NCBI RefSeq assembly: GCF_001530125.1
Contig: NZ_LDUG01000006.1
Span: forward strand, 1-64,000
Direction of reading: 5' to 3'
DNA: 64,000 bases
Origin: Thiobacillus denitrificans
GTDB lineage: Bacteria; Pseudomonadota; Gammaproteobacteria; Burkholderiales; Thiobacillaceae
The notes under the pieces are model-generated. The model had not been told where the DNA came from. It did no database searches and saw nothing but the letters and a program-made list of their open reading frames with translations. Positions within the stretch are counted from its first letter, which is position 1; every line of letters starts with the position of its first letter. Shown here in pieces: positions 1,807 to 26,816 of this stretch. The translations under genes were made by a program, and so were the position numbers.

Positions 1807-1893
1807 GTCATCGCGAGCCCGCAGGGCGTGGCGATCCAGCGCTCTTCGATTCCGCTGGCATTCTGAATTGCTTCGCACTGCTCGCAATGACGG
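1807..1893. repeat. GTCAT-ended dispersed repeat, full copy
   Basis: The 87 bp element starts GTCATCGCGAG and ends CTCGCAATGAC, which are imperfect inverted termini. It contains GGCGATCCAG and ATTGCTTCGC, the hallmark words of a repeat family common in many bacterial chromosomes. A left-truncated relative lies at 2814-2877 next to murA. Orientation relative to the flanking DNA is the same in both places. Confidence 0.7.
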
Positions 1894-2058
1894 CATCTGC
1901 ATGGCTCCAGTGCACGCGCCGGATGCGCGCGCCGCCGAGGATGGCCATGATGAGCAGGGGCAACTCGGACGAGTGGCCGAACGGCAGTAGCAGGGGACGA
2001 CTGGCGACCACGAGGCGGGATTGAACATACGGGGAATCTCATGCCACTTTCCCCTCGT
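1894..2058. other. gene-free stretch with a possible murA 3'-end remnant
   Basis: Bases 1906-1931 match the last 26 bp of murA (2889-2914) with three mismatches (CAGTGC-CGCGCC-GATGCG-GCGCC). They sit about 13 bp from the GTCAT repeat, just as the real murA end does. On the minus strand this reads GARIRRVH against GARIRRAH in MurA. Upstream, the same frame reads LLLPFGHSSELPLLIMAILG, which looks like a scrap of a membrane protein, perhaps an O-antigen ligase. No functional gene is visible. Confidence 0.45.
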
Positions 2059-2493
2059 TCAATCCGCAAAATTTCGGATGACCATAAAGCCTTCGCGCTC
2101 GGCCGCCAGACTCAAGCGGGTATCCAGGCATACGAATTGCCAACCTTTCGGTCTATGCTCGCAGACAAGCAGCGCTGCTGCCAATTGCAGTGAATCGGCG
2201 GCGCGCAGAGGGTGAAGCCGCAGCAGGCGTTGAGCGATCTGGCGCACGCCGTCCAGGGGTTGCACTTCATGCCAGGCTGCCTGCAGCGCTGCCAATTGAC
2301 CCAGCGCCAGCGTGATTTCTGTCGAATCAAGCTTGGCTTCACGTTCGAGCCTGGCCAAGGCGGAAGCGCACTCGACCGGGGTTCCCCACCATGCAACGAT
2401 TTCAGGATTGTTTTCGTAATAGCCGAGTGCTGAGGGCGTGCTCGCTTCTTCAACCAGCAACGGCAGGATTGCAGAGCTATCCCAGAATTTCAC
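2059..2493 (-). CDS. vapC: PIN-domain ribonuclease toxin, VapC family
   Basis: The protein has 144 residues, a normal VapC length. All four acidic positions expected of a PIN nuclease can be placed: Asp5 (FWDSSA), Glu41 (VECASAL), Asp100 (AADSLQLAAAL) and Asp124 (CLDTRL). By family knowledge it would cleave RNA and inhibit translation unless bound by VapB. It starts at GTG 2493, whose bases overlap the vapB TGA as GTGA, so the two genes are translationally coupled. The module sits directly 3' of murA in the same orientation. Confidence 0.88.
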   Translation of the reverse strand: MKFWDSSAILPLLVEEASTPSALGYYENNPEIVAWWGTPVECASALARLEREAKLDSTEITLALGQLAALQAAWHEVQPLDGVRQIAQRLLRLHPLRAADSLQLAAALLVCEHRPKGWQFVCLDTRLSLAAEREGFMVIRNFAD

Positions 2494-2791
2494 CGCGCCG
2501 ACTCGCGTTCTTCCAGCAAAGCCTGGAGTGCGCTGGCATGCTGCAGTGCTACGGGGGGCGGTGCCAAACGACAGGCCGTTCCATGGCCTCGCCGCAGGAT
2601 GCCTTTGCGTTCCAGAAGCGCAAGCTCGTCCGATTGGCCGTTTTCACTCACGACCGGGATGAGCCGGGCGACCGGCCGGTCGTGGTCGGTGATGAGGATG
2701 GTCTCGCCGTGGCGAACTTGCTCAATCAGCGCACTCAACTGATTTTTGGTGGTGGATATTGAGGCGGTTTTCATTTGGCCATTATAGCCAT
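2411..2791 (-). repeat. 381 bp direct repeat, copy 2
   Basis: This is the partner of 332-712. It contains the complete vapB and the first 27 codons of the intact vapC. Upstream of the shared block this copy continues with AATTATATTGGGGC, whereas copy 1 runs straight into the 3' end of hisG. Confidence 0.9.
2490..2774 (-). CDS. vapB: antitoxin, Phd/YefM family (vapB copy 2)
   Basis: This 94-residue antitoxin precedes vapC and overlaps it by four bases. The N-terminal Phd/YefM region (ISTTKNQLSALIEQ, ILITDHDRPVARLIPV) should bind the module's own promoter; the C-terminal part would cap the toxin. The TATA-rich DNA just upstream (ATTATAGCCATAATTATAT, 2780-2799) is AT-rich against a GC-rich background and is the likely promoter-operator. 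The antitoxin is nearly identical to the orphan copy beyond hisG. Confidence 0.88.
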   Translation of the reverse strand: MKTASISTTKNQLSALIEQVRHGETILITDHDRPVARLIPVVSENGQSDELALLERKGILRRGHGTACRLAPPPVALQHASALQALLEERESAR

Positions 2792-2813
2792 AATTATATT
2801 GGGGCAGTTACGC

Positions 2814-2877
2814 GGCGATCCAGGATGCTTCGACTCAGCGGGCGTTCTGGATTGCTTCGCGTTGCTCGCAATGACGG
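2814..2877. repeat. GTCAT-ended dispersed repeat, left-truncated copy
   Basis: The sequence from GGCGATCCAG through ATTGCTTCGC to CTCGCAATGACGG aligns with 1829-1894. The left terminus seen at 1807 is missing. It fills most of the gap between murA and vapB. Confidence 0.65.
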
Positions 2878-2889
2878 CGGCAGCATATT

Positions 2890-4143
<1,254 letters not shown>

Positions 4144-4380
4144 TCAGCGCGCAGCCCAGTCTTCGGGGGTATAGGTCTTCATCGACAGCGCATGGATCTC
4201 CGCGTGCATGCGCGAACCGAGTGCGTCGTACACCAGCCGGTGCTGCTGGATCATGTTCTTGCCGGTGAAGGCCGGGCTGACGATCACCGCCTGAAAATGC
4301 TGGCCGTCGCCGTCCAGTTCGATGTGGTCACACGGCAGTTTCTCGGTGATCCAGCCTTTGATGTCGTCGGGGGTAACCAT
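4144..4380 (-). CDS. ibaG: BolA/IbaG-family protein
   Basis: The 78-residue protein has the BolA-like fold. Its signature regions are IELDGDGQHFQAVIVSPAF, then the invariant-histidine region around NMIQQHRLVYDALG and the end HALSMKTYTPEDW. IbaG/BolA proteins partner monothiol glutaredoxins in Fe-S and redox handling; which role applies here cannot be read from sequence. It sits between the ABC-2 permease gene and murA, as in E. coli where ibaG lies beside mla genes and murA. It is probably co-transcribed with both. Confidence 0.9.
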   Translation of the reverse strand: MVTPDDIKGWITEKLPCDHIELDGDGQHFQAVIVSPAFTGKNMIQQHRLVYDALGSRMHAEIHALSMKTYTPEDWAAR

Positions 4381-4395
4381 GCGTGTTGTGCCTCT

Positions 4396-5151
4396 TCAGT
4401 GTCTGAGTTTGTAGCCGCTTTTCAGCAGCGCCAGAGTGAGCGCGGATATTGCCACAAAGCAGGCACTGGCGACCAGCAAACCGAGCCAGGGATCGGTGTC
4501 GGACTGGCCGACAAACGCATAGCGAAAGCCGTCGATCAGGTAGAACACCGGGTTGGCATGCGAGATCCCCTGCCAGAAGGGGGGCAGTGAATGGATCGAG
4601 TAGAACACGCCGGACAGGAAGGTGAGCGGCAGGATGAGGAAGTTCTGGAATGCCGCCAACTGGTCGTATTTTTCCGCCCAGATGCCGGCGACGATGCCGA
4701 TCGCGCCCATGATGGCGCAGGCCAGCAGCGCATACGCCAGCAGCCAGCCCCAGTGCGGCATCTGCCACGGGGCGAACCACAGGGTCACCACCCAGACGCC
4801 AAGCCCGACCACCAGGCCGCGGATCACCGCCGCGCCCAGATAGGCCAGGAAAAATTCCAGGTAGGACAGCGGCGGCAGCAGCACGAACACGATGTTGCCC
4901 TGCATCTTCGACTGGATCAGGCTGGACGAGCTGTTGGAGAACGCGTTCTGCAGCATGCTCATCATCACCAGCCCCGGCACCAGGAAGCTGGTGTAGGAGA
5001 CGCCGGGATAGACTTCGACGTGCGCTTCCAGCACATGCGAGAAGATCAGCAGATACAGCAGGGCCGTCACCACCGGGGCGACCACCGTCTGCACCGCCAC
5101 TTTCCAGAAGCGCAGCATTTCCTTGTAGAAGAGTGCCGGCAATCCGCTCAT
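4396..5151 (-). CDS. ABC-2 type transporter permease
   Basis: This is a 251-residue inner-membrane protein with about six hydrophobic segments and an ABC-2 core (TSFLVPGLVMMSMLQNAF, later FLSGVFYSIHSLPPFWQ). It should pair with the ATPase at 5432-6340; the substrate is unknown, and such pairs export polysaccharides, lipids or drugs. ATG 5151 is preferred, with GAGGG just upstream. A longer open frame to 5349 only translates REP DNA and gives an implausible Arg/Pro-rich N-terminus. A REP array separates it from its ATPase gene. Confidence 0.88.
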   Translation of the reverse strand: MSGLPALFYKEMLRFWKVAVQTVVAPVVTALLYLLIFSHVLEAHVEVYPGVSYTSFLVPGLVMMSMLQNAFSNSSSSLIQSKMQGNIVFVLLPPLSYLEFFLAYLGAAVIRGLVVGLGVWVVTLWFAPWQMPHWGWLLAYALLACAIMGAIGIVAGIWAEKYDQLAAFQNFLILPLTFLSGVFYSIHSLPPFWQGISHANPVFYLIDGFRYAFVGQSDTDPWLGLLVASACFVAISALTLALLKSGYKLRH

Positions 5152-5214
5152 GTGAACACCCTCGAATCCGTCACGCCGGCGTCCATCCCCGAAAGAGGCA
5201 ATTCCGGGATGACG

Positions 5215-5428
5215 CGCCGCATTCGGGGCGAGGGCGCCCCGAATTTCGCGCCGTCGCAACCACCACGGCTTCGGCCCGGGGGCGGGCCTCCTACAACAGC
5301 GCGGACCTGTAGGAGGGGCGCCCTCGCCCCGAATTTCGTGCCATCGCAATCACCACGGCTTCGGCCCGGGGGCGGGCCTCCTACAACAGCGCGGACCTGT
5401 GGGAGGGGCGCCCTCGCCCCGATTTTCG
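5215..5428. repeat. REP-like array inside an operon
   Basis: The array holds about two and a half tandem REP-like units in reverse orientation, with GGGCGGGCCTCCTACAACAGCGC and CTGTAGGAGGGGCGCCC words. It fills almost the whole 280 bp between the ATPase and permease genes of one transporter. Hairpins in such units can stabilise upstream mRNA or stop RNA polymerase, so the array could set unequal levels of the two subunits. Confidence 0.8.
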
Positions 5429-5431
5429 TGC

Positions 5432-6336
<905 letters not shown>

Positions 6337-6340
<4 letters not shown>

Positions 6341-6615
6341 GCAGGCAACAGCTCGGACACCCCGTACAGCTCGGCCAGGGTGGCGAAGCTGGTCGGCAGG
6401 CCGGTGCAGGCAAGGCTGCGGCCGGCTTGCCGGGCCTGTCGCATGGCGCTGAAGATGAGGGGGAGCGCAGCCGAATCGGCGGTTTCGACGCCGCTGAAAT
6501 CCAGCGTGTCAACACCCTTGGCAAGCTGCGGCTGCAATTCGCGCAGCAGGCCGCCGACGCTGTCGACGGTCACCGCACCGGTGATGCGACAGCCGTTGCC
6601 CTCACATGCAATCAT
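6337..6615 (-). CDS. mlaB: STAS-domain protein MlaB
   Basis: The 92-residue STAS-domain protein is the cytoplasmic regulator of the MlaFEDB phospholipid transporter, where it binds and stabilises the MlaF ATPase. The STAS core is visible as TLDFSGVETADSAALPLIFSAM, with the conserved serine in ADSAAL. It lies directly after mlaC (four-base overlap) and before the ABC-2 ATPase gene. The mlaC-mlaB order matches the E. coli operon. Confidence 0.88.
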
Positions 6616-7262
6616 GAGCCGGGTCGCGGCGCCGGCTTGGCCTCACCGCGTGCAGACTGGGCAGCCAGCGTTTTGATCAGCCCGTCAATCCCGTTCTGGC
6701 GAATGGTGCTGGCAAAGGATGACCGGTAATTGGTCACCAGGCTGACGCCGTCGATCGTCACGTCATAGACCTTCCAGCCGAAAGCCGTTTTGTACATGCT
6801 GTAGTTGATGGGAATCGGTTGCCCGCCCGGCTGGAGGATTTCGGAGCGCACGGTCACATCGGTGTCGTCCGGCTTCATCGTCAGCGGTTTGAATTCGACG
6901 ACCTGGTCGGTGAACGCGGTGAGCGAACTGGAATAGGTGCGCACCAGCAGGTTGCGGAATTCGGTCACCAGTTTCTGTTTCTGCTTGGCGGTGGCACGTG
7001 GCCAGTGCCTGCCGAGGGCCAGCTGGGTCATGCGATTGAAGTCAAAGTTAGGCAGAATTTTGGCTTCGACCAGCTGATACACCTTGGCCAGGTTGCCGCG
7101 CTGAAGCTCCTTGTCCTGTTTCAGGATGGTGATAACTTCCTGCGTGGTGGTACGTGCCAGCACGTCGGGCGGGGTGTCGGACGGCATGTTGGCGGCGAGC
7201 GCCGCAGGCGCATTGAACCCCAGCAGCAGTGCCAGCAACGGCATTAAAAATGAGCGCAACAT
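6612..7262 (-). CDS. mlaC: periplasmic phospholipid-binding protein MlaC
   Basis: The 216-residue protein starts with a signal peptide (MLRSFLMPLLALLLGFNAPAALA). The mature part has the MlaC/Ttg2D pattern NFDFNRMTQLALGRHWPRAT, then KQKLVTEFRNLLVRTYSSSL and VYDVTIDGVSLVTNYRSSF. MlaC shuttles phospholipid across the periplasm between the outer-membrane MlaA complex and the inner-membrane MlaFEDB complex. No mlaA is present in this operon; a TolC-family gene occupies the place just upstream. Confidence 0.93.
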   Translation of the reverse strand: MLRSFLMPLLALLLGFNAPAALAANMPSDTPPDVLARTTTQEVITILKQDKELQRGNLAKVYQLVEAKILPNFDFNRMTQLALGRHWPRATAKQKQKLVTEFRNLLVRTYSSSLTAFTDQVVEFKPLTMKPDDTDVTVRSEILQPGGQPIPINYSMYKTAFGWKVYDVTIDGVSLVTNYRSSFASTIRQNGIDGLIKTLAAQSARGEAKPAPRPGS

Positions 7263-7343
7263 ATCAAGTATTCCTGTTCGAGAAAATCGGGGGACAAATC
7301 GGCGCGGCGCAGATCGGCAAGGCTAAGCGTAGACGCCCGCTGC

Positions 7344-8708
7344 TTACCGGAGTTCACCCGACAGGCGCGCCAACTGCGCCACATTCATGTTGTAGTCGTT
7401 GACCGTACGCAAATATTCGGTCTGTGCCAGGGTATAGTTCCTGATCGCGTCGGCCACCTTGTCGGCGCTTTCGAGCCCGGCCGAAAAATCGGCCAGCGAC
7501 GCCACCATCCAGCGCCGCGCCGCTGCGGCGCCTGCGGCCAGATCGCGCTGTGAATCATGGTTGGCCCGGGCGTTTGCATAGGCCTCGCCCACTTCAAACG
7601 GAATGCCGGCCACCGCAAAAGCCTTCTTGTGGTTGAGCGCTTCCAGTTCGGCCTGCGCCTGATTGACGCGGGCATTCGTCGCACCGAACACGCTGTCCCA
7701 TTTCACGCCCACCACCGGGGTGAGACCGCCGCCATTGAAGGGGTCGTTGAGGTAGGGGTTGTCCAGCCGCTCGCGCTGCGAGGCATAGTTGAACTGCCCG
7801 ATCACGCCAGCGTAGACGTCCGGCATGCGATCCGCTTTTTTGGCGGCCACCAGGGCACGGCGGGTGCGCAGTCCCGCTTCGAGCTGCTGCATTTCGGGAC
7901 GCTCCAGCAAGGCGCGCGACTGGAATTCGGCCAGATCGATCTGCGGGAAAGTCACCGGCTCGATCCGTGCATCGGCCACCGTGAGATCAGATTTCAGCCC
8001 CGCGCCGGTCAGCACTTTCAAGCCATCGAGGCTGATTTTTTCGACCGCGCGTGACTGGTGCACATACTTGGCCAGCATCCCTTTTGCGGTTTGCAGCGCA
8101 TACAGGTCGGATTGCCTGGATTCGCCGGTTTCTTCCTTGAGGTTGCGCTCGACCGAGGTGATGGCCTGATTCAGCCGCCCCTGCATGTCTTCCAGGAAAA
8201 CCCGGGTATCACGCGCGGTCAGATAGCCGAAGTAGGCACGCTTGGTGTCATACACCGTGTCGCCGCGCGTCTGCTTGAGTTCGCCGCGCTTGAGGTCGAC
8301 ATTGCCCTGCGCCGCCTCGCCGTAGCGCTCGATCTTGCCGAAGGTATAGAGCGGCTTGATCAGCGCGAAGTCGAGGTGGGTCCAGTCGGAAACGCCGTTA
8401 AAGCTGTTGCCGTCGGAGCGTGGCGTCGTTCCGCTGTAGGTGTTGCCGTCCTGATAGAACCCGCCCTCCACTTTCGGCGCCAGCCCCACAAAGGCGTTGG
8501 CGTTGAGCCGCCAGCCCGCTTTGCCCTGTACTTCCTGCAACATGCCGCGCGCGGCTTCGACCACCTGTTCGCGCTCCTTGATGCGGGGATCGGCGGCGAG
8601 GCTCATTTCCACCGCCTGCTGCAGGTTGATGGTCTCTGCCTGCCCAGGCAGGGTGGTCAGCAGCACGCCGGCTGCCAGGAGGGTATGGGTGAGTGCGTTG
8701 CGTTTCAT
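7344..8708 (-). CDS. TolC-family outer-membrane protein within the mla operon
   Basis: The 454-residue protein has a signal peptide (LLAAGVLLTTLPGQA) and the outer-membrane efflux-protein layout: two long alpha-helical repeats, with the motif INLQQAVEMSLAADPRI at the start and LAQTEYLRTVNDYNMNVAQL at the end. TolC-type trimers form periplasm-spanning exit ducts. Its ATG overlaps the mlaD stop by four bases, so it is an integral operon member. Many betaproteobacteria carry mlaA (vacJ) at this point. The duct could serve the ABC-2 exporter encoded downstream, or be linked to lipid transport; neither can be decided from sequence. Confidence 0.88.
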   Translation of the reverse strand: MKRNALTHTLLAAGVLLTTLPGQAETINLQQAVEMSLAADPRIKEREQVVEAARGMLQEVQGKAGWRLNANAFVGLAPKVEGGFYQDGNTYSGTTPRSDGNSFNGVSDWTHLDFALIKPLYTFGKIERYGEAAQGNVDLKRGELKQTRGDTVYDTKRAYFGYLTARDTRVFLEDMQGRLNQAITSVERNLKEETGESRQSDLYALQTAKGMLAKYVHQSRAVEKISLDGLKVLTGAGLKSDLTVADARIEPVTFPQIDLAEFQSRALLERPEMQQLEAGLRTRRALVAAKKADRMPDVYAGVIGQFNYASQRERLDNPYLNDPFNGGGLTPVVGVKWDSVFGATNARVNQAQAELEALNHKKAFAVAGIPFEVGEAYANARANHDSQRDLAAGAAAARRWMVASLADFSAGLESADKVADAIRNYTLAQTEYLRTVNDYNMNVAQLARLSGELR

Positions 8709-9172
8709 TGAGGCGCTCCTTCTTGAGCTTGGCCGTACATAAACCGTCCGATCAGATTCTCCAGCACCACGGCTGACTGGGTGATGAAGATCTGGTCCTG
8801 GTCCTTCAACATTTTGCTGTCGCCACCCGCTTCCAGCCCGACATATTGTTCGCCCAGCAAACCCGAGGTCATGATGGCGGCAGCGGTGTCCTTGGGAAAA
8901 GCATAGCGGTTATCCAGCCGCAGGGTAACGGCGGCTTCGAATGTTTCATTGTCGAAACGGATATCCGCCACCCGGCCAACCACCACGCCGGCGCTTTTAA
9001 TCGGCGCACGCGGCTTGAGCCCGCCGATATTGTCGAAACGGGCGACAACTTCGTAGCTGTTCGACGCGCTGACGACGCTCGTGCTGCCGACCTTGAGCGC
9101 CAGGAACAGCAACGCGGCAATGCCTGCGACGACGAATAATCCCACCCAGAGATCGAGTACGGTCTTGTTCAT
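8705..9172 (-). CDS. mlaD: MCE-domain protein MlaD
   Basis: The 155-residue protein has one N-terminal membrane helix (LWVGLFVVAGIAALLFLALKVG) followed by a single MCE domain (SYEVVARFDNIGGLKPRAPIK, GVVVGRVADIRFD). MlaD forms a hexameric ring in the periplasm on top of MlaE and hands lipids to MlaC. It abuts mlaE without a gap and overlaps the TolC-type gene. The length agrees with short-form MlaD. Confidence 0.95.
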   Translation of the reverse strand: MNKTVLDLWVGLFVVAGIAALLFLALKVGSTSVVSASNSYEVVARFDNIGGLKPRAPIKSAGVVVGRVADIRFDNETFEAAVTLRLDNRYAFPKDTAAAIMTSGLLGEQYVGLEAGGDSKMLKDQDQIFITQSAVVLENLIGRFMYGQAQEGAPQ

Positions 9173-9961
9173 TTAATTGAGTCCCCGAAACATGAATGCG
9201 GTCAAAACAAAATCCAGCGCCAGCACGACCAGGCTGGAGGTCACCACGGTGCGCGTGGTGGCGCCCGATACGCCTTCGGCGGTCGGCGGTGCGTCATAGC
9301 CTTCGAACAGCGCGATGGTGGTGATGGCGACGCCGAACACCACGCTCTTGATGACGCCGTTCAAAATATCCTGCTCGAGATCGACCGCGCTCTTCATCTG
9401 CGACCAGAACGCCCCTTCGTCCACCCCGATCAACTGCACGCCGACCAGATAGCCGCCGAAAATCCCCATCGCCGAGAACAGCGCGGCCAGGAGCGGCATC
9501 GAAATCACCCCCGCCCAGAAGCGCGGCGCCACCACACGGGCGATCGGGTCCACCGCCATCATTTCCATCGCCGACAGTTGCTCGGTCGCCTTCATCAGGC
9601 CGATCTCGGCGGTGATGGCCGATCCGGCACGGCTGGCGAACAAAAGCGCCGCCACCACCGGCCCCAGTTCGCGCACCAGGGACAGCGCCACCAGAATGCC
9701 CAGCGCCTCTTCCGCGCCGTAGGTCTGCAATGTCTCGTAGCCCTGCAAGCCGAGCACCATGCCGACAAACAGCCCCGACACCAGAATGATGATGAGCGAG
9801 AGCACGCCGGTGAAGTACATCTCGCGGATGGTCAGCCCGAAGCGGCGGAATGCGGTGCCCGAGTGCAGCAGGACCGCGACGAAGAAACGGGCCGCAAAGC
9901 CGATGCGCCAGACGGCCTGTATGGCGCGGTTTCCCAGGTTTTCAATCGATCGCTTAAGCAC
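9173..9961 (-). CDS. mlaE: phospholipid-transport permease MlaE
   Basis: The 262-residue inner-membrane permease belongs to the MlaE/Ttg2B family. It has five to six hydrophobic segments and the family signature [20 protein letters not shown], then [16 protein letters not shown]. It forms the membrane core of MlaFEDB. GTG 9961 is chosen because it follows a GGGGG ribosome-binding site and overlaps the mlaF stop by eight bases; the longer frame up to 10039 lies within mlaF. Confidence 0.94.
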
Positions 9962-13948: not shown

Positions 13949-14703
13949 AGACGAGCCCGCCCTCGCCGGGAACAACAGGTCGCAGCTTCTTTGTTGCCGA
14001 CCTGCACCTGACTGACGAACGCCCGGTCGCCACCGGGCGTTTTTTTCGCTTTCTGCAGGAAGACGCTGCCGGTGCGGATGCGCTCTACATCCTCGGCGAC
14101 CTGTTCGATGCCTGGGTCGGCGACGACCACGACGCGCAGGTGGCGCACGACACCGCGCGCCAGCTCAAGTCCCTCGTTGATGCAGGCACGCCGGTGTATT
14201 TCATGCACGGCAACCGCGACTTCATGCTGGCCGCGCGCTACGCCGCACAGTCCGGCATGACGCTGCTGGCCGACCCCGCCCGGATTGATCTGTATGGCGT
14301 GCCGACGCTGCTGATGCACGGCGATACGCTGTGTACCGACGACACCGCCTACCAGGCGTTTCGCCGCCGGGTGCGGCACCCGCTGACGCTAGCGTTGCTG
14401 CGCCGCCTGCCGCTGGCGCTGCGCCACCGCCTGGCACGTCAGGCGCGGGCGGGCAGCGAAGCGGCCAAGGCCGGCAAGCCGGCCGAAATCATGGATGTGA
14501 ATGCCGAGGAAGTGGTGCACGTGCTGCGCGAGCGACAGGTCTGCCGCCTGATCCACGGCCATACCCATCGGCCGGCGCGGCATCTGCATGCGATCGATGG
14601 ACAGGACTGCGAGCGCTGGGTGGTGCCGGACTGGTATGCCCGCTGGGGCTATGTGGCGTGCGACGCCGCCGGCTGTGCGCTCAGGATTGAATATTTAGCG
14701 TAA
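13945..14703 (+). CDS. lpxH: UDP-2,3-diacylglucosamine diphosphatase, apparent CTG start
   Basis: LpxH hydrolyses UDP-2,3-diacylglucosamine to lipid X in lipid A synthesis, on the cytoplasmic face of the inner membrane. All calcineurin-like metal motifs are present: [31 protein letters not shown] and HGHTHRP. The frame holds no ATG, GTG or TTG between the stop at 13447-13449 and the GTG at 14140, which lies after the first two motifs. The best candidate is CTG 13945, preceded by GGCGGA and overlapping the ppiB stop as CTGA, giving 252 residues. The last 264 bp are duplicated at 15666-15931, beyond a TA module. Confidence 0.85.
14019..14046 (+). terminator. intrinsic-terminator-like hairpin inside lpxH
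   Basis: ACGCCCGGT (14019-14027) and ACCGGGCGT (14032-14040) form a perfect 9 bp stem with a CGCC loop, followed by a run of seven T. It lies about 70 bp after the ppiB stop but inside the lpxH reading frame (residues [10 protein letters not shown]). It could end a fraction of ppiB transcripts or attenuate lpxH. Coding constraint is an alternative explanation. Confidence 0.6.
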
Positions 14704-15012
14704 AACTCGCGCAGCGACTCGTTCGTCCCCTCGCCCGCTTGCGGGAGATAACCAACGACTTGCCCGCTTGCGCAGCTTATTTGATCCGGCCAAGTGAGGT
14801 TTGAAGTAGGCGCACCCGCAAGGGGCAGGCCGTCGCTGTAAAGCCGACAAGTCGGCAACAGCCACGCACCGGCGCCGCGCAACCGCCAGCATTCGGCCCG
14901 GGGGCGGGCCTCCCACACAAGCGCTCACCTGCAGGAGGGACGCCCTCGCCACGAATTAACCCGGATTGTCTATTGGCCGCTTTGTGGCGGGTCCGCTGCA
15001 GTCGCAGGGCCA
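14704..15012. repeat. repeat-filled gap between lpxH and the TA module
   Basis: No gene is visible. Bases 14806-14866 hold the second copy of the nested hairpin element (GCTGT 14835-14839 pairing with ACAGC 14858-14862 around GCCGACAAGTCGGC). About 14870-14958 is a degenerate REP-like unit in reverse orientation (GGGGGCGGGCCTCCCACA, then CTGCAGGAGGGACGCCCTCGCC). The rest is unique sequence with CCCGCTTGCG words. Confidence 0.65.
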
Positions 15013-15333
15013 CTATGCCTCAAACAACTCCGAGTGGGTGCCGGCACGAACGAAGTTGATCAGCTTGCCCTCGACCTGGTAGATCAGCAGGAAGTCGCCG
15101 CCGACGTGACACTCCCGATGGTCGGCCCATTCGCCCTTGAGCGGGTGATCGAGCCACTCCGGCCCGAGCGGGGCATCGTTGGCAATGAGCAACAGCATCA
15201 CCTCCTTGAGCCGCTTCATGTCGTAGCGGCCGGAGCGCGAGAGCCGTTCCCAGTCTTTTTGAAACGCCTTGGTGTAGTCCGTTGCCCGCGGCAGCGGCGC
15301 CCGTTTAGCGCTGACGGGTTTTTTCGAGGTCAT
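15013..15333 (-). CDS. yafQ: mRNA interferase toxin, YafQ/RelE family
   Basis: The 106-residue protein ends with the YafQ core: HPLKGEWADHRECHVGGDFLLIY and FVRAGTHSELF. The histidines, aspartate and terminal HSELF-type motif match the residues YafQ uses for ribosome-dependent mRNA cleavage. About 15 Lys/Arg-rich residues at the N-terminus precede the conserved start ATDYTKAFQKDW. The coding start overlaps the end of dinJ by 29 bp, so the true start may be slightly further in. The module is convergent with lpxH and is bracketed by lpxH tail sequences. Confidence 0.87.
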   Translation of the reverse strand: MTSKKPVSAKRAPLPRATDYTKAFQKDWERLSRSGRYDMKRLKEVMLLLIANDAPLGPEWLDHPLKGEWADHRECHVGGDFLLIYQVEGKLINFVRAGTHSELFEA

Positions 15334-15583
15334 CGAACAAGGCTTCAGCAGTCTCGAAACGCGCCTGGCGGGCCTTCATCATCGCGCGCGACTCTTCAAT
15401 GGCGGCTTGTGTCGGGGCGTTCGGCACCTTCAGTTCCAGCGGAAAGGCCTGGTCATTGACCACGCGCTTGAGCAAAATACGCACGGCATCCGAAACGGAC
15501 AAGCCCATGGCTGCCAGGGCCTCGCTGGCCTGAGCCTTCACTTCGTCGTCCACGCGGACGTGCAGCATCGAGGTATGCGCCAC
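15305..15583 (-). CDS. dinJ: antitoxin, RelB/DinJ family
   Basis: The 92 residues show a ribbon-helix-helix N-terminus (MLHVRVDDEVKAQASEALAAMGLSVSDAVRILL) and a charged C-terminal tail. This is the cognate antitoxin of YafQ and should repress its own promoter. The upstream DNA (CTATAAAATTTGCATTATGTATC, 15596-15618) is AT-rich and a likely promoter-operator region. Antitoxin precedes toxin, the usual order. Confidence 0.87.
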   Translation of the reverse strand: MAHTSMLHVRVDDEVKAQASEALAAMGLSVSDAVRILLKRVVNDQAFPLELKVPNAPTQAAIEESRAMMKARQARFETAEALFDDLEKTRQR

Positions 15584-17976: not shown

Positions 17977-18080
17977 CCCTGGCGACGCTTTAGCCGTATT
18001 TATTGAGCGCCCGCAAGCTGAGGTTCAAATCGGCGCCTACTGCATTACGCGACCAAATTTACGCCCGGCGCCCCGCGGGG

Positions 18081-19604
<1,524 letters not shown>

Positions 19605-19652
19605 GCTGCGCACCTATTCATAAAATTGGGTCTTAAAAACCTCAGTTCATTT

Positions 19653-19804
19653 ACCACAGAGATATGTCCCGCAGGGACGGTATCCCTTGGGACACAGAGA
19701 AAACAACAGGTTGCAGAAAGACTTACCGTCGCCAAACCGGAGAATGATACGTACAGGACTTCGTTCCTTGTTTTTCAACTCTGTGCCTCTGTGACTCTGT
19801 GGTT
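19653..19804. repeat. CACAGAG-ended element, copy 2
   Basis: This element of about 152 bp lies between purF and cvpA. The left arm ACCACAGAG is followed at 19662-19692 by an inserted module (ATATGTCCCGCAGGGACGG then TATCCCTTGGGAC) before GACACAGAG. The right arm is CTCTGTGCCTCTGTGACTCTGTGGT. The same module is found at 52811-52842 and 39022-39051. Confidence 0.75.
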
Positions 19805-19821
19805 AACTGCTTTTTCCGGGA

Positions 19822-20313
19822 TCACTCAAAACGAACGTATTTCGCCACGTTTGTCGGCAGCAGCGGCAAGGCGCGCTGCGCCATCGCCTGCAGGCTGTCC
19901 GACAGCATGGCCTGTTTCCAGAAGTCGGTGCGCGGCAGCGAGGTCAGCCCGGCGGCAAGTGTCAGGCCGATCAGAATCACCAGCCCCTTGGCCAGCCCCA
20001 CCACCCCGCCCAGCACCTTGTCGGCACCGCCCAGTCCAACCGCCTTGACCAGCGAGGCCAGCACATGCCCCAGCAGCAGCACGCCGATCAGCACCAGCAG
20101 AAAGATCACCGCAAAGCCGGCAAAATAGCGGATCGCCGGGTTTTCGGTCCCGATCGGCAGCAGCGGCGCCACCATCAACGCACCCCACTTGCCCAGCATA
20201 AACGCCAGCACCCAGGCCGCCAGCGAGAACAGCGTGTCGACCATGCCGAGCATCAGGCCGCGCACCACGGTGAGGATCAGCACCAGCACCACAATGAGGT
20301 CGAGCATGCTCAC
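19822..20313 (-). CDS. cvpA: CvpA family membrane protein
   Basis: The 163-residue inner-membrane protein has four hydrophobic segments and the CvpA opening MSMLDLIVVLVLILTVVRGLMLG. In E. coli CvpA is required for colicin V production and bile or stress resistance; its biochemical role is not settled. The gene overlaps the SPOR-domain gene upstream by four bases and precedes purF. Confidence 0.9.
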   Translation of the reverse strand: MSMLDLIVVLVLILTVVRGLMLGMVDTLFSLAAWVLAFMLGKWGALMVAPLLPIGTENPAIRYFAGFAVIFLLVLIGVLLLGHVLASLVKAVGLGGADKVLGGVVGLAKGLVILIGLTLAAGLTSLPRTDFWKQAMLSDSLQAMAQRALPLLPTNVAKYVRFE

Positions 20314-20924
20314 TTTGTAAGGATCTGCCCGGTCATGCCGTTTTCGGCCAGTTTCACCGCGGCCGCCACAGCGGCTTCGCGCGAGGGATAGGGACCCACC
20401 CGCACGCGCGTCAAGGCACCCACCTTGTCCGTATAGGCCGGCAAGCCGGCCTCGGCGGCGCGCGCCTTGAGTGCCTGGGCCTTGGCGGAATCGGACAGGG
20501 CGGCCAGTTGCACCACGAATGCCTCGCTGGCTGCTTGCGGCGCAGGCGCCGCAGCGGGCTTGGGCAGCGGGGGCGGAACGGACACGGGTTCGACCGGTGC
20601 CGCTTTGACTGGTTCAGGTTTGGGGGCGGGCTCGGCCTGAGGCACCGGCTTGGCGGGTTCGACCTGAGGCGCGGGTTGCGACGCGGGCGGGGATGGCGGC
20701 GCGGCTGCCACGTCGGGTTCGTCTGCCGGATCCGGCTGCGCCGCGGTATCGAGCACCGGTTGCGGTGCGGCCTCCATGTGCACGGCCAGCGAACTCGCCG
20801 GCGGCGGCTCGTCTTCCAGCAGCAGCGGCAGCACAATCACCGCCAACAAGGTCAGCGCAACCGCGCCAATCAGGCGGCGCCGGGCAAGGCGTTTGAGGTC
20901 ATTTTCACTGCTGGATGGCGGCAT
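20310..20924 (-). CDS. SPOR-domain cell-division protein (DedD-like)
   Basis: The 204 residues comprise a cytoplasmic N-terminus (LKRLARRRLIGAVALTLLAVIVLPLLLED contains one membrane helix), a long Pro/Ala/Lys-rich periplasmic linker, and a C-terminal SPOR domain from about residue 130 (FVVQLAALSDSAKAQALKARAAEAG). SPOR domains bind denuded glycan strands at the septum. Position between folC and cvpA matches dedD of E. coli. Confidence 0.88.
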   Translation of the reverse strand: MPPSSSENDLKRLARRRLIGAVALTLLAVIVLPLLLEDEPPPASSLAVHMEAAPQPVLDTAAQPDPADEPDVAAAPPSPPASQPAPQVEPAKPVPQAEPAPKPEPVKAAPVEPVSVPPPLPKPAAAPAPQAASEAFVVQLAALSDSAKAQALKARAAEAGLPAYTDKVGALTRVRVGPYPSREAAVAAAVKLAENGMTGQILTK

Positions 20925-22182
20925 GGTCGAGGACGGCAGCTACGGTATGGAACGAACCGAAGACGAGAATTCTATCACCTTCGCGCGCCGCGCTTTGCGC
21001 CTCCGCGAGCGCCGTGTTCACATCCGGCTGCACGCTGATCGGTGCGCTGCCCGCATGCACGCGCAGGGTGGCGGCCAGCGCCGCGGCATCCTGCGCCCGC
21101 GGCGAGTCGGGCCTGCACGTCCACCACGCATCGATCTCGCCCTGCAATGCGGCGAACACGCCCGCCGTATCCTTGTCGGCCAGCATGCCCACCACCGCCA
21201 GCGTGCGCCCGGCCACCGGCTGCTCGCGCAGGGTGGCGGCCAGCGCCCGCGCCGCTTCCGGGTTGTGCGCCACGTCGAGAATGACGTCAGGCGCACGGGC
21301 AATGCGCTGGAACCGCCCCGCCACACGTGCCTGCGCCAGCCCCTGGCGGATCGCCGCCTCGCTCACCGGCAGGCGGGCGCGCACGGCCTCCAGCGCCGCC
21401 AGCGCAGCGGCTGCATTGCGCAACTGGAAGGTGCCCGCCATGGCGGGCAGCGGCAGTGCCGGCCAGCTGACAGCCTGACCGCGATAGGTCCACTGGTCGC
21501 CCTCGCGCTGCGCGGAAAAGTCCCGCTCCACGCAACGCAGGTCGGCGCCGATTTGCCGGGCATGCTCGAGCAGACTAGCGGGCGGCGCAGGGTCAGCGCA
21601 AATGGCGGGGCGGCCCGCACGGTAGATCCCCGCTTTCTCGAAGCCGATTTGCTCGCGGGTGTCGCCCAGATATTCCATGTGGTCGAGATCGACGCTGGTG
21701 ACGATCGCGGCCTCTGCGTCGAACACGTTCACCGCGTCGAGCCGCCCGCCCAAACCGACCTCAAGTATGGCCACGTCGACGCTGGCGTCGATGAACTGCG
21801 CCATCGCGCCCAGCGTGCCGAATTCGAAATAGGTCAGCGAGGTGTCGCCGCGCGCGGCGTCGATCCGCTCAAACGCCTGCACCAGTTCGGCGTCGGGGGA
21901 TTCCTGCCCGGCGATCCGCACCCGCTCGTTGTAGCGCAGCAGATGCGGCGAGGTGTAAAGGCCGGTTTTGTAACCGGCGGCACCGAGGATGGCTTCCAGA
22001 TAGGCGCAGGTGGAGCCTTTGCCGTTGGTGCCGCCGACGAGGATGAGCGGGAAAGCCGGCGCCAGGCCCATCGCATCCCTGACCCGGCACACCCGGTCGA
22101 GACCCAGTTCGATGGTGCTGGGATGCAGCCGCTCCAGCCGCGCCAGCCAATCGGCCAGCGAAAGACCCGAGCGTGTCACCAC
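20905..22182 (-). CDS. folC: bifunctional folylpolyglutamate/dihydrofolate synthase
   Basis: FolC adds glutamate to folates and makes dihydrofolate from dihydropteroate. The ATP-binding loop GTNGKGS lies at residues 51-57 and the Mur-ligase-like centre includes TSVDLDHMEYLG. The 425-residue length is normal. It begins with GTG 22182, five bases after the accD stop, and its end overlaps the SPOR-domain gene by 20 bp. accD-folC-dedD-cvpA is a conserved order. Confidence 0.96.
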   Translation of the reverse strand: MVTRSGLSLADWLARLERLHPSTIELGLDRVCRVRDAMGLAPAFPLILVGGTNGKGSTCAYLEAILGAAGYKTGLYTSPHLLRYNERVRIAGQESPDAELVQAFERIDAARGDTSLTYFEFGTLGAMAQFIDASVDVAILEVGLGGRLDAVNVFDAEAAIVTSVDLDHMEYLGDTREQIGFEKAGIYRAGRPAICADPAPPASLLEHARQIGADLRCVERDFSAQREGDQWTYRGQAVSWPALPLPAMAGTFQLRNAAAALAALEAVRARLPVSEAAIRQGLAQARVAGRFQRIARAPDVILDVAHNPEAARALAATLREQPVAGRTLAVVGMLADKDTAGVFAALQGEIDAWWTCRPDSPRAQDAAALAATLRVHAGSAPISVQPDVNTALAEAQSAAREGDRILVFGSFHTVAAVLDHAAIQQ

Positions 22183-22186
22183 AGCC

Positions 22187-23053
22187 CTACGCAGCCAGCG
22201 CGGGCCGGCCCATCATCATCGCCAGCGCGGCGGCGAGTTCGTCGCGCATCTGGCGGCGGTCGATGATGCGGTCGACGGCGCCCTTGTCGACCAGGAACTC
22301 CGCACGCTGAAAGCCTTCCGGCAGCGTCTCGCGCACCGTCTGCTCGATCACGCGCGGGCCGGCAAAGCCGATCAGCGCATTGGGCTCGGCGACGATCAGG
22401 TCGCCCAGCATGGCGAAACTGGCCGACACGCCGCCCATGGTGGGGTCGGTCAGCACCGAAATGAAGGGCAGGCGGTTGCGCGACAACTGCGTCAGCGCGG
22501 CCGAGGTTTTTGCCATCTGCATCAGCGAAAACAGGCCTTCCTGCATGCGCGCGCCGCCGCTGGCGGCAAAGCAGATGAAGGCCGAGTTCGATTCGATCGC
22601 CGCTTCCACGCCGAGGACAAAACGTTCGCCCACCACCGAGCCCATCGATCCGCCCATGAACTTGAACTCGAACGCCGCCGCCACCACCGGCACCGCCTTG
22701 ACGCTGCCGCCCAGCACGACCAGCGCGTCGGTTTCCGAGGTGCCGGCCTGCGCTTCCTTCAGGCGGTCTGGATATTTCTTGCCGTCCTTGAATTTCAGCG
22801 GGTCGAGCGGCGTCACCTGCGCGCCGATCTCGTGCTGACCCTCGGCATCCAGCAGCATGGCCAGCCGCGCGCGAGCACCGATTCGGTGATGGTGGCCGCA
22901 CTTGGGGCACACCTCCAGGTTGCTTTCAAGGTCGGCACGGTAGAGCACCTCGTTGCACGCCGGGCACTTCGACCACAGCCCTTCCGGCATCGATTTGCGT
23001 GCCTCGACCCGGCGCTTGATTTTAGGCGGCAGTATTTTTTGGAACCAGCTCAT
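22187..23053 (-). CDS. accD: acetyl-CoA carboxylase carboxyltransferase, beta subunit
   Basis: AccD with AccA (encoded at 58673-59641) transfers CO2 from carboxybiotin to acetyl-CoA, giving malonyl-CoA. The N-terminal zinc ribbon has Cys30, Cys33, Cys49 and Cys52. The crotonase-like core includes [12 protein letters not shown] and SGGARMQEG. At 288 residues it is complete. A CACAGAG element separates it from trpA upstream. Confidence 0.96.
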
Positions 23054-23087
23054 GTTTTTCTCCGTTTATCCTTGAAACCGCAGTTGA

Positions 23088-23223
23088 ACCACAGAGGCAC
23101 AGAGCGCACAGAGGAAAAACAACACCTTGCATGTGTCAGTGCGCCCACCCGATGGGTGAAGGCGGGTTGATAAACAACCCATTGATTTTCTGCCGTTCTC
23201 CGTGCCTCTGTGTCTCTGTGGTG
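23088..23223. repeat. CACAGAG-ended element, copy 3
   Basis: About 136 bp between trpA and accD start ACCACAGAGGCACAGAG and end GTGCCTCTGTGTCTCTGTGGT. The interior holds small hairpins (CACCCGATGGGTG, GGGTTGATAAACAACCC) not present in the other copies. Confidence 0.75.
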
Positions 23224-23235
23224 GGGTTTTCAGGT

Positions 23236-24042
23236 TTATTTCGATGCGGCGTCGACGCCGCGGCGCAACTCGGCCACCAGCTGCTTGACGCGGGTGGCGC
23301 ACTCGCCTTCCGGCGCGGTCTCGATCTCGCTCACGATGCGGCTGCCCACCACCACGGCGTCGGCAATCCGCGCCACCGCCTCGGCGGTCGCCGCGTCACG
23401 AATGCCGAAGCCCACGCCGACCGGCAGGTTGCAATGCTTGCGGATGATGGCAAGCTTTTGCGCCACTTCATCCATATCGAGATTGGCCGACCCCGTCACC
23501 CCCTTGAGCGAGACGTAGTAAATGAAACCGCCGGCGACCGCCGCCACCTGTTCCACCCGCGATTCGGGCGTGGTCGGCGACAACAGGAAAATCGGGTCGA
23601 GACCATATGCCTTGAAGACGTCCGACACACCCGCAGATTCCTCGGGCGGAATGTCCACCGTCAGCACGCCGTCCACCCCGGCCGCCTTCGCCGCCTTGGC
23701 AAAGGTCTCGTAGCCCATGTGCTCGACCGGATTGGCATAGCCCATCAGCACCACCGGCGTCGTCGTATTGGTCTTGCGGAATTCCGCCGTCATCGCCAGC
23801 ACATCTTTGAGCCCGACCTTGTTTGCCAGCGCCCGCTCGGACGCGCGCTGAATCACCGGACCGTCGGCCATCGGGTCGGAAAACGGCACCCCGAGTTCGA
23901 TGATGTCGGCACCGGCTTCCACCAGCACGTGCATCAGCGGCACCGTCAGCCCCTTTCCGGGATCGCCGGCGGTGATGAAGGGAATCAGGGCTTTCTTGTT
24001 GTGCGCTTTGAGCGCGATAAAGGTCTGGCCGATGCGGCTCAT
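23236..24042 (-). CDS. trpA: tryptophan synthase alpha chain
   Basis: The 268-residue TIM-barrel subunit cleaves indole-3-glycerol phosphate to indole. Catalytic Glu49 (IELGVPF) and Asp60 (MADGPVIQ) are present. In most relatives trpA follows trpB directly; here mrr and a TA module lie in between, so trpA is now about 1.6 kb from trpB. It starts only four bases from the mrr stop, so transcription presumably continues through the insertion. Confidence 0.97.
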
Positions 24043-24045
24043 GGT

Positions 24046-24954
24046 TCAGTCTTCTTCAAAATAATCAGTGTCCAGGCGCTTCACCGTATAAACATCTTTG
24101 GTGGAAACGCCCAGATCGTGGTCCATCATCAGTTCTGCCAGCATCGGGCCGTCGATCAGAACGACCCGGTGATTCACTTGCGCCGCGTAGTCAGTCGCGC
24201 CTTTGGAAAAGCCCGCGCTGGTAATGAAAACGCCTTTGCTTGCCTTGTTCCCCGCCAGCGCACCTACAAATTTCTGAATCTCGGGGCGGCCAACATCCGC
24301 CTCCCACCGCTTGGCCTGGATGTAGATCACATCCAGCCCGAGCCGGTCTTCATTGATGATGCCATCGATGCCGCCATCACCACTTTTCCCAACCACCCGC
24401 CCCGCGTCTTCCTGCGTGCCGCCATAACCCATCTTCAGCAGCAACTCGACGACCAGTTCCTCAAAACGTGATGGCCTGACGCTTTTGATTCGATCCAGCA
24501 ACTCGATAGCCAGTGCCTCGCGTATTTGTTTGTAGCCCCCAGCAATGAGTTCGTCGGGTGTTTCAGGATTTACTAAAGCTGACTCAACAAACTTGCTCTC
24601 GTCCTTTGGCTTGCCCGCATTAAAAATCACAAACTCAGGAAAGCGCTTCAGATACCTGACATTCAAGGGCTGTGGGTTCTCATTCAGAACCTGCAATCCA
24701 CGTGCGGTAATCCTGAAAACGCCACGCCGCAAGTTCTCAAGTAACCCCGCCTGTTTGAGATAGCTCTTTGCCCAGCCCACACGGTTATCAAACATACCCT
24801 GCTTGCCGCTGGCGAGCTTGATTGAAAGCTCCGTCTCAGTCAGTGCAAACTGCTTTGTCAGCAACGGCAGCAATTCCTGCTTGGTATGTTCCTGACCATC
24901 CGCACAGGCTTTCAGAAGCGGCAGGAAAACGCTTTGGAAATCGGGGATAGCCAT
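24046..24954 (-). CDS. mrr: Mrr-type restriction endonuclease
   Basis: The 302-residue protein has an N-terminal winged-helix Mrr_N domain (about 1-95) and a C-terminal PD-(D/E)XK nuclease domain. The nuclease motifs are GDGGIDG at 192-198 and IQAKRW at 212-217. Mrr enzymes cut methylated DNA, so this is a type IV defence gene. Its sequence is richer in Lys, Asn and AT codons than the flanking trp genes, consistent with acquisition. Its start codon lies directly at the edge of the duplicated trpB tail. Confidence 0.9.
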   Translation of the reverse strand: MAIPDFQSVFLPLLKACADGQEHTKQELLPLLTKQFALTETELSIKLASGKQGMFDNRVGWAKSYLKQAGLLENLRRGVFRITARGLQVLNENPQPLNVRYLKRFPEFVIFNAGKPKDESKFVESALVNPETPDELIAGGYKQIREALAIELLDRIKSVRPSRFEELVVELLLKMGYGGTQEDAGRVVGKSGDGGIDGIINEDRLGLDVIYIQAKRWEADVGRPEIQKFVGALAGNKASKGVFITSAGFSKGATDYAAQVNHRVVLIDGPMLAELMMDHDLGVSTKDVYTVKRLDTDYFEED

Positions 24955-25010
24955 GCTTACAGCGTAATCCCCGACAGCTTCGCCACGGTGTTGATGTCCT
25001 TGTCGCCGCG
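24950..25010 (-). pseudogene. duplicated trpB 3' end (about 60 bp)
   Basis: GCCATGCTTACAGCGTAATC and the following 40 bases match 25610-25670, the end of trpB with its stop codon, with one mismatch. Similarity fades after 25010. Together with the real trpB end it brackets brnT and its antitoxin. The mrr start codon is the CAT within the repeat. Confidence 0.9.
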
Positions 25011-25083
25011 CTTGGAGGTACGCCCCAATTGAATTTCATTCATGTTCATGTGTTCAAGGCAGGCAGATCAAACCAGACAGCGC

Positions 25084-25323
25084 TCACTTGCGCGCTGTAC
25101 GCTTTGCTTGCACGGTAATACGCGTTGTTTGTTCCGTAAGGTTCAGCAACCCTAGCAAGGCCTGATTCACCGCTTCCGAAGTCGGAAAGGCTTTTGCAAC
25201 CTTGTCGTTCAGCAAAACAAGATTGGTGCCTTTCGAGTAACGTTCAAAGTACTTCCCGCGCACACCCTTGCCCAAGTCCTTGCGCGTGTATTCGGCCCGC
25301 ATTTCATCTTTAATCTTGCTCAT
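25084..25323 (-). CDS. putative antitoxin paired with BrnT-like toxin
   Basis: The 79-residue protein contains RGKYFERYSKGTNLVLLND and FPTSEAVNQALLGLLNL, a short strand followed by helices that could form a DNA-binding antitoxin fold. It lacks the obvious features of classical BrnA, so the assignment rests on position. It overlaps the end of brnT by 14 bp, with the toxin gene first, as in brnTA modules. Confidence 0.7.
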   Translation of the reverse strand: MSKIKDEMRAEYTRKDLGKGVRGKYFERYSKGTNLVLLNDKVAKAFPTSEAVNQALLGLLNLTEQTTRITVQAKRTARK

Positions 25324-25585
25324 AAATACCTCGCTCGTGTTTAGTCGCCTTGCGGGCGCTGATGATTCTCAAGATGCGGCCACGTTCAACATTGACCACC
25401 AGCAACACCCGGTTGCGATCCGACACGCCAAAAGTGAGCAGGCGATGCTCATCCACCGAGTGGTCCGGGTCGTCGAATGTCAGCGCCAGCGGATCGCCAA
25501 ACACCGTCGCCGCCTCTTCAAACGAAACACCGTGTTTCGCCAGGTTCGCCGCAGCCTTGGCCGCATCCCAAGCAAACTTCAGCAT
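25310..25585 (-). CDS. brnT: BrnT-family toxin
   Basis: The 91 residues match the BrnT ribonuclease pattern: FAWDAAKAAANLAKHGVSFEEA, FGDPLALTFDD, and the end RIISARKATKHERGIYE. BrnT has a RelE-like fold and inhibits translation. The gene precedes its antitoxin, which is the order typical for BrnT systems and opposite to the other two TA modules here. It lies 32 bp from the trpB stop in the same direction. Confidence 0.88.
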   Translation of the reverse strand: MLKFAWDAAKAAANLAKHGVSFEEAATVFGDPLALTFDDPDHSVDEHRLLTFGVSDRNRVLLVVNVERGRILRIISARKATKHERGIYEQD

Positions 25586-25616
25586 CGCACATTTTCCGCC
25601 AGGTGCACGGCCATGC

Positions 25617-26816
25617 TTACAGCGTAATCCCCGACAGCTTCGCCACGGTGTCGATGTCCTTGTCGCCGCGCCCGGAGAGATTCACCAGGATGATCTGGTC
25701 TTTCTTCATGGTCGGCGCGAGTTTTTTCGCCTGCGCAACGGCATGGCTGGATTCGAGCGCGGGAATGATGCCTTCAAGCCGGCACAGGTCGTGGAAGGCG
25801 GCCAGGGCTTCGTCGTCGTTGATGACAACGTATTCGGCGCGGCCGGCGTCCTTCAGATAGCTGTGCTCGGGGCCGACGCCGGGGTAGTCGAGGCCGGCGG
25901 AGATGGAGTGGGTTTCGATGATCTGGCCGTTTTCGTCCTGCATCAGATAGCTGCGGAAGCCGTGCAGCACGCCCGGGGTGCCGGCCGACAAGGGCGCGGC
26001 ATGTTTGCCGGAAGCAATCCCGGAGCCACCGGCTTCGACACCGATCAGGCGCACGCCTTCATACGGGATGTAGGGATGGAAAATGCCGATGGCATTGGAG
26101 CCGCCACCGACGCAGGCGATCACCGCATCGGGCTGGCGGCCGGTCAGCTCGGGCATCTGGGTGAGGCATTCGCGGCCGATCACGCACTGGAAGTCGCGCA
26201 CCAGCATGGGGTACGGATGCGGGCCGGCGGCGGTGCCGAGGATGTAGAAGGTCGACTCGACGTTGGTGACCCAGTCGCGCATCGCTTCGTTGAGCGCATC
26301 CTTCAAAGTTTTGGATCCGGAAGATACCGGCACCACGGTGGCACCGAGCAGCTTCATGCGAAAGACGTTGGGCGCCTGGCGGATGACGTCTTCGGCGCCC
26401 ATGTAGACCACGCATTCCATGCCGTAGCGCGCGGCGACGGTGGCCGAGGCGACACCGTGCTGACCGGCGCCGGTCTCGGCGATGACGCGCTTCTTGCCCA
26501 TGCGCCGCGCCAGTATCGCCTGGCCGATGGTGTTGTTGATCTTGTGCGCGCCGGTGTGGTTGAGGTCTTCGCGCTTGAGAAAGATCTGCGCGCCGCCGTA
26601 TTGCTCGGAAAGCCGTTTGGCGTGATACACCGGGCTGGGGCGGCCGACGTAGTGCTTCAGCTCGTATTCGAATTCGGCGATGAAGGCGGGATCGTTGCGC
26701 GCGCGGTCATACTCGACGCGCAATTCTTCCAGCGCCGCCATCAGGGTTTCGGCGACGAAAATGCCGCCGTAAGGGCCGAAGTGGCCGCGGGAATCGGGGA
26801 GATCAGTCAGTTTCAT
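25617..26816 (-). CDS. trpB: tryptophan synthase beta chain
   Basis: The 399-residue PLP enzyme condenses indole with serine. The PLP lysine is Lys92 in HTGAHKINN, and the phosphate-binding GGGSNA loop is present. ATG 26816 overlaps the trpF stop (ATGA). The last 60 bp, including the stop, occur again at 24950-25010 beyond the TA module. The enzyme itself is complete. Confidence 0.97.

Follow-up and report, generated by a model that had tools for sequence, protein, structure and literature searches.

Toxin-antitoxin cassettes enclosed by copies of gene ends in Thiobacillus denitrificans and its relatives

Results

Three toxin-antitoxin modules in the window

The window analyzed here comprises the first 64,000 nucleotides (nt) of one contig (NZ_LDUG01000006.1) of the 3.29 Mb genome of Thiobacillus denitrificans. 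It contains three toxin-antitoxin (TA) modules, namely a brnT-antitoxin pair next to trpB, a dinJ-yafQ pair next to lpxH, and a vapBC-like pair next to murA (Table 1). A first-pass annotation, made from the sequence alone, had assigned a single topology to all three: a complete gene, the TA module, and then a duplicated 3' end of that gene. This observation is confirmed in part. The repeats at trpB and lpxH were recovered independently of that annotation at 68 nt and 266 nt, respectively, each with an identity of 96% (60 bp and 264 bp had been claimed), whereas the murA/vapBC locus looks like a tandem duplication.

The repeat at trpB is composed of 61 nt of the gene, including its stop codon, and seven additional nucleotides; in the second copy, the mrr start codon lies within these seven. 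The first copy has the identical seven bases after the stop codon and then diverges towards brnT. A single coding difference separates the tail copy from the trpB of the window, AAC in the copy versus GAC. The AAC codon is common to many other congeners, and the tail copy may therefore descend from another lineage or retain an older state.

Table 1 Features at the three TA loci of the window
Feature	Position	Strand	Basis or remark
trpB, complete	25617..26819	-	Start taken at the MKLTDLPDS methionine; longest frame reaches 27047
trpB end plus 7 nt, first copy	25610..25677	-	Repeat search
brnT toxin	25310..25585	-	Pfam PF04365
brnA-like antitoxin	25084..25323	-	No Pfam match; name from position and first-pass annotation
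trpB tail copy, 68 nt, extending into mrr start	24950..25017	-	Repeat search
mrr-type restriction endonuclease, between trpB tail copy and trpA	24046..24954	-	Pfam PF04471, PF14338; PADLOC mREase_IV
trpA	23236..24042	-	Next to mrr
lpxH, complete	13999..14703	+	Metallophosphatase by Pfam; LpxH name from first-pass annotation; orthologues in genus; read from 13999
lpxH portion duplicated	14432..14697	+	Repeat search
yafQ-type toxin	15013..15333	-	Pfam PF15738
dinJ/relB-type antitoxin	15305..15583	-	Pfam PF04221
lpxH tail copy, 96% identical, internal stop codons	15666..15931	+	Repeat search, orthologue comparison
murA, complete	2890..4143	-	Name from first-pass annotation; gene end conserved in relatives
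vapBC-like pair, first copy of tandem duplication	2059..2774	-	Phd/YefM antitoxin by Pfam (2490-2774)
vapC-like frame	2059..2493	-	No Pfam match; name from position and first-pass annotation
Start of gene following hisG in relatives, between vapC and murA tail copy (approximate)	1933..2040	-	Comparison with relatives
murA tail copy plus interspersed repeat	1827..1933	-	Repeat search
hisG	717..1403	-	Between murA tail copy and second vapB copy
Second copy of vapB and vapC start, 98% identical to 2411-2791	332..712	-	Repeat search; Phd/YefM antitoxin by Pfam (411-695)

Empty and occupied sites in the genus

Relatives with empty sites, and with junctions at the repeat edges, were found for both trpB and lpxH. 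The trpB-trpA junction was read in 47 congeners (28 + 19); the reading of G019 stopped at a contig end, G006 and G030 were left out, and five of the 56 genomes gave no trpA match (genomes and loci carry our own G and L numbers). The junction is empty, with a spacer of 34-84 bp, in 37 of the 47 congeners, and it holds TA or restriction genes in 11 of 48 genomes (ten congeners plus the window). The congener inserts consist of hicAB (G021, G017), brnTA with hicB (G005), hicAB followed by a trpB-tail copy and mrr (G034, G064, and G009, the hicA of G064 looking broken), mrr alone (G028, G002, G074), or a HicB-like gene followed by a type II methyltransferase and a restriction enzyme (G071, L094). 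The family assignment was checked for hicAB in G021 and for the methyltransferase and restriction enzyme in G071. The brnT of G005 and the hicA genes of G017, G021, G034, and G009 are family-search matches, and the other insert names derive from similarity. Every gene-bearing insert read at this one junction (11 of 11) carries TA or restriction genes. The trpB-trpA junction is a recurrent site for such genes, which are sometimes stacked with trpB-tail copies between them.

At lpxH, the dinJ-yafQ cassette is missing in 43 of the 44 congeners read. A convergent neighbor lies within 222 bp of lpxH in 42 of the 44, in most cases abutting it directly, and in G032 that convergent gene is absent. The same cassette occurs at lpxH in G005 alone, where the lpxH copy has suffered an internal deletion and the duplication extends 24 nt past the stop codon into a spacer common to the empty site of G063. 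The window and G005 do not group as sisters in a TrpA, LpxH, and HisG tree that carries no support values; the insert they share would thus have been lost in, or moved between, lineages. Note that the assembly of G001 contains two diverged lpxH neighborhoods (L035 and L114), probably from mixed strains.

The trpB-trpA junction beyond the genus

When the genome collection was scanned with the Mrr sequence of the window, 380 relatives were obtained, the best 80 of which were analyzed. The 17 closest of these (61-90% identity; L337-L353, with L352 and L353 cut by contig ends) all adjoin trpB and/or trpA, and at least five of them (L337, L344, L345, L346, L351) are congeners already counted above. 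For the other 63 of the best 80, neither trpB nor trpA was found within the flanks examined, apart from one weak reverse trpB-like match. The named Mrr relatives belong to assemblies titled Thiobacillus, Hydrogenophilales, Sulfurimicrobium, Sulfuricellaceae, and Gallionellaceae. Among the best 80 of the 380, one Mrr subfamily (L337-L353) seems to be resident between trpB and trpA in several families, with the more distant relatives located elsewhere.

The space between trpB and mrr is variously filled. Nothing intervenes in L337, L342, and L346; hicAB or hicB is found in L339, L340, L341, L344, L345, L349, and L351; brnTA in L348; a ParE-like pair in L343 and, by resemblance and together with hicB, in L352; a DUF4258-DUF2283 pair in L338; and a DUF4160-DUF2442 pair in L347 and, by resemblance, in L350. 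The record of L347 is titled Bordetella parapertussis, although its trpB-insert-mrr-trpA order is like that of metagenome-assembled genomes of sulfur oxidizers, and the title may be a mislabel. When tested against 40 shuffles, copies of the trpB tail are clear in L341, L343, L344, L345, and L352 and weak in L348, L349, and L351. The copy begins 42 nt before the stop codon in L341, L344, and L345, 105 nt before it in L343 and L352, and 58 nt before it in the window. These three different starting points imply at least three separate duplications at one junction. Between L348 and the window the BrnT proteins are 88% identical and the TrpB proteins 78%, a comparison of one pair without a tree that hints at transfer of the brnTA cassette between lineages.

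Enclosing repeats at TA loci

Four family searches (BrnT, YafQ, HicA, PIN) over 56 genomes provided 106 TA loci with flanks of up to 1.5 kb per side. These are a subset of all matches, at most 30 per search, top-scoring first and mostly one per genome. Of these, 80 were usable with both flanks full, and 26 were dropped with a flank cut by a contig end; many of the genomes are drafts, and repeats end contigs. The control consisted of 582 random positions, not accessory inserts, at 1-kb spacing in 40 stretches. The window and 20 further stretches of its own genome (423 kb, or 12.9% of that genome) were sampled for repeats, as were 20 stretches from 12 congeners. Control positions near known TA matches were excluded only in the own-genome stretches. 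Direct repeats were considered low-copy when at least 30 nt long, spaced 150-4000 nt apart, and present in at most four copies. The 423 kb contained 16 such repeats, four of them in the window (39 before the copy filter). GC-rich interspersed repeats of the CTCCTACAACAGCGC type, which lie in both orientations at 1440-1790, 5225-5430, and 14890-14957 of the window, were filtered out.

A low-copy direct repeat encloses the TA gene at 15 of the 80 loci versus 7 of the 582 control positions. With the two loci of the window excluded the values are 13 of 78 and 7 of 582 (Fisher p = 1.3e-8), and for gene-end cases only, a class assigned by eye, they are 8 of 78 and 2 of 582 (p = 1e-6), the p values being rough in that neither the loci of one genome nor the positions of one stretch are independent of each other. 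By the terms of the first-pass annotation, 3'-end repeats equally common around random genes would have refuted its interpretation; enclosing repeats are commoner at TA loci than at random positions. Within the own genome, however, an enclosed TA gene is the minority state: only one of 14 further TA matches in the sampled stretches is enclosed by a listed repeat, with three of the 14 lying near a stretch end.

The eight gene-end cases outside the window involve the 3' ends of nrdB (G061; 160 nt, 95% identity), an ElyC-like gene below the family cut-off (G070; 65 nt, 95%), a BtuC/FecCD-type permease (G031; 108 nt, 77%), a WcaJ-type transferase (G012; 210 nt, 90%), and a RarA-like ATPase (G068; 89 nt, 84%), a region near the 3' end of nrdB, named by resemblance (G010; 44 nt, 86%), the 5' end of thiO (own genome; 229 nt, 81%), and a region near the 5' end of ispH (G071; 55 nt, 91%). 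With the two loci of the window included, eight of ten are 3' ends and two are 5' ends. A duplicated 3' end, claimed as the shared feature, is thus a bias and not a rule: it holds for lpxH, trpB, and most other gene-end loci, but thiO and ispH led us to abandon the notion of copying confined to 3' ends. The distance between the repeats in the ten cases is 550-1288 nt, which leaves little space for an integrase besides the TA pair.

Left out of the gene-end count, in addition to the two loci of the window, were L162, L168, L195, and L196 (apparently interspersed or TA-on-TA repeats) and L177. The last is an array in which the tail of a RES-domain gene, whose frame looks broken, occurs three times with a YafQ-type pair and, by eye, a VapBC-like pair between. 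In L197 the tail of an epimerase-like gene, assigned by eye, likewise occurs three times, with HicA between the first two. As for the controls, L267 proved to be a Phd-VapC pair enclosed by recA/recX copies, and in L274 a gene-end copy of 44 nt encloses no recognizable TA pair. Of the other five positives, three fall among the paralogous genes of L253, one is intergenic (L266), and one lies within L278. A separate case, L188 in G005, shows a 442 nt direct repeat of 98% identity that is apparently a tandem duplicate of hicAB. Outside the genus, an enclosing repeat was observed in 9 of 47 full-flank loci, few of them gene-end-like; this count was made with no copy-number filter and no control, and 11 further loci were cut.

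The murA/vapBC locus

The order of elements near murA is a match to the hisG end, the vapBC copy, a match to the start of the gene that in relatives comes after hisG, the murA tail with an interspersed repeat, hisG, and a truncated second vapBC. The murA tail and interspersed repeat at 2811-2916 and its copy (107 nt) are 79% identical. The sequences at the two edges of the repeated unit derive, in order, from a single chromosomal neighborhood, which among the three cassettes is the case here only, and vapBC is located 3' of hisG in G071 and G005 as well. We read the locus as murA tail-hisG-vapBC duplicated in tandem, the first hisG having later been lost.

The gap between murA and hisG exceeds 300 bp and contains a nucleotidyltransferase-like cassette in 5 of 29 congeners (L067, L068, L074, L076, L083), the family check having been made for L074 only, with weak Pfam matches. 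Ahead of the cassette of L083 there is support for a decayed copy of the hisG start (score of 43 versus 25 for the best of 30 shuffles); such a copy is weak in L074 (34 versus 30) and L068 (27 versus 22). None was seen in L067 or L076 by the same shuffle test. Near the murA end in L083, a murA stretch of ∼20 nt is tandemly repeated and seems to disturb the frame.

Discussion

We interpret the trpB and lpxH cassettes as insertions with long target duplication by homology-anchored recombination, and murA/vapBC as a tandem duplication with loss of hisG, a reading that we hold to be about evenly poised between right and wrong. The duplications are contiguous pieces of the target, 42-266 nt in length, that may include a gene end, a spacer, or the start of the next gene. 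As described above, they can pass the stop codon, and the copies decay. The route of insertion is probably homology-anchored recombination. Linear DNA bearing a TA pair would enter and align through homology with the end of a chromosomal gene; its opposite end would be joined, without homology, to a point further back in that gene, on a sister chromosome or another chromosome copy. This would leave the gene complete, then the TA pair, then part of the target a second time. Joins at other places would remove neighboring genes and be purged, such that the gene-sparing duplications remain. Once formed, the allele could pass from relative to relative when flanking genes are exchanged in the ordinary way, the site could take up additional cassettes in a stack, and the tail copy might decay or permit clean loss. 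Such a route need not be specific for TA pairs.

Several observations weigh against this interpretation. The lpxH copy of the window is nearest to its own lpxH (96.2%, versus 88-91% for seven near relatives and 80-84% for three others), and along the complete lpxH the similarity does not break markedly; gene conversion, or copying that was entirely local, therefore fits as well as an end supplied by a donor. Part of the 24 nt past the lpxH stop codon in G005 resembles an interspersed repeat. In five inserts at the trpB-trpA junction (L338, L339, L340, L347, L350) a trpB-tail copy was undetectable against 40 shuffles, and no donor DNA or intermediate was seen.

The duplications might instead accompany accessory inserts in general and have nothing to do with the TA genes, TA pairs being frequent recent arrivals for which random positions are an unfair control. 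This is a real possibility, if one we would place somewhat short of even. Indeed, our controls are of precisely that random kind, Mrr and the methyltransferase-restriction pair also occupy the trpB-trpA junction, and the gene-end copy of L274 encloses no recognizable TA pair. Yet all 11 gene-bearing inserts at that junction, albeit a single one, contain TA or restriction genes, and one of the two gene-end control positives turned out to be the Phd-VapC pair. Tandem duplication with later loss at all three cassettes, one of two explanations offered in the first-pass annotation, accounts well for murA/vapBC, where the vapBC copy follows a hisG end and precedes the start of the next gene. As a common explanation it is quite unlikely: the trpB and lpxH inserts are absent from most relatives, there is no remnant of a second TA copy after the tail at either locus in the window sequence, and no relatives with a tail-less TA pair are basal to the trpB/lpxH duplication.

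Two further schemes would yield the same topology. In the other explanation of the first-pass annotation, a TA pair plus a gene tail is borne on a small circle that integrates by a Campbell-type single crossover. The arrangement at trpB and lpxH and the stacked cassettes with tails between them are what such circles would leave, so the scheme is possible, but it is without specific support, and duplications that differ in length, may take in spacer or the first part of the next gene, and also involve 5' ends make it unlikely. Site-specific integration at the 3' end of a gene, for its part, classically results in a complete gene, the cargo, and a displaced tail. This is the topology observed here, and 3' ends prevail at eight of the ten gene-end loci; the cassettes could accordingly be relics of integrative elements whose recombinase, targeting gene 3' ends, has since been lost. 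Already weakened, this alternative is very unlikely. There are 5' copies, the copies range from 42 to 266 nt with 550-1288 nt between the repeats, and there is no fixed attachment core, the host genes and the starting points within trpB being different. No recombinase gene was noticed in the inserts, of which no systematic scan was made.

Homology-anchored insertion would point to chromosomal entry of TA pairs without a transposon or integrase. It is an open question how TA pairs, with no mobile element to carry them, come to lie at ordinary places in the chromosome; here the scar of entry is still readable and the empty sites are known. TA and restriction genes have repeatedly settled in the tryptophan operon. 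Only tentatively would we extend this to a general recombinase-free mode of TA entry, in which repeatable, gene-sparing, homology-anchored insertion at gene ends builds tail-punctuated TA and restriction arrays at preferred operon junctions, such as trpB-trpA, in several bacterial families; in that breadth the proposal is doubtful.

The acquisition route that spares the target gene, suggested in the first-pass annotation as new, is partly supported, namely for two of the three cassettes, and it is not wholly new. A search by title and abstract, with subscription literature mostly beyond its reach, found no publication on the gene-end-copy pattern for TA pairs. For stacked toxin-immunity genes in Vibrio, homology-facilitated illegitimate recombination has been proposed (PMC5361080). 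The arrays of orphan immunity genes and Rhs 3' ends described there resemble the present ones in their successive homology-anchored additions and in the displaced 3' pieces between toxin-related genes, but there the variable gene is the toxin itself, whereas in our cassettes an unrelated housekeeping gene serves as anchor and is kept whole. In the merodiploids formed by transformation in pneumococcus (PMC3784515), incoming DNA likewise pairs with two sister copies to give a duplication; those, however, need repeats in donor and host and exceed 100 kb, whereas the duplications here are short and come with new cargo. The closest precedent is provided by certain restriction-modification gene insertions, which are accompanied by long, variable target duplications on the order of ∼100 bp (Nobusato 2000; Furuta 2010; via PMC3874152, PMC1643837). 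Common to both are an empty site, a target duplication of variable length, and no known mobile element. In our case TA pairs make up most of the cargo, what is duplicated is usually the end of a gene, and one junction has stacked cassettes; both inserts in the window are TA pairs, and the restriction genes at the trpB site are without a demonstrated tail copy of their own. As far as these sources go, insertion with long target duplication is already known for restriction-modification genes; here it would involve TA cargo.

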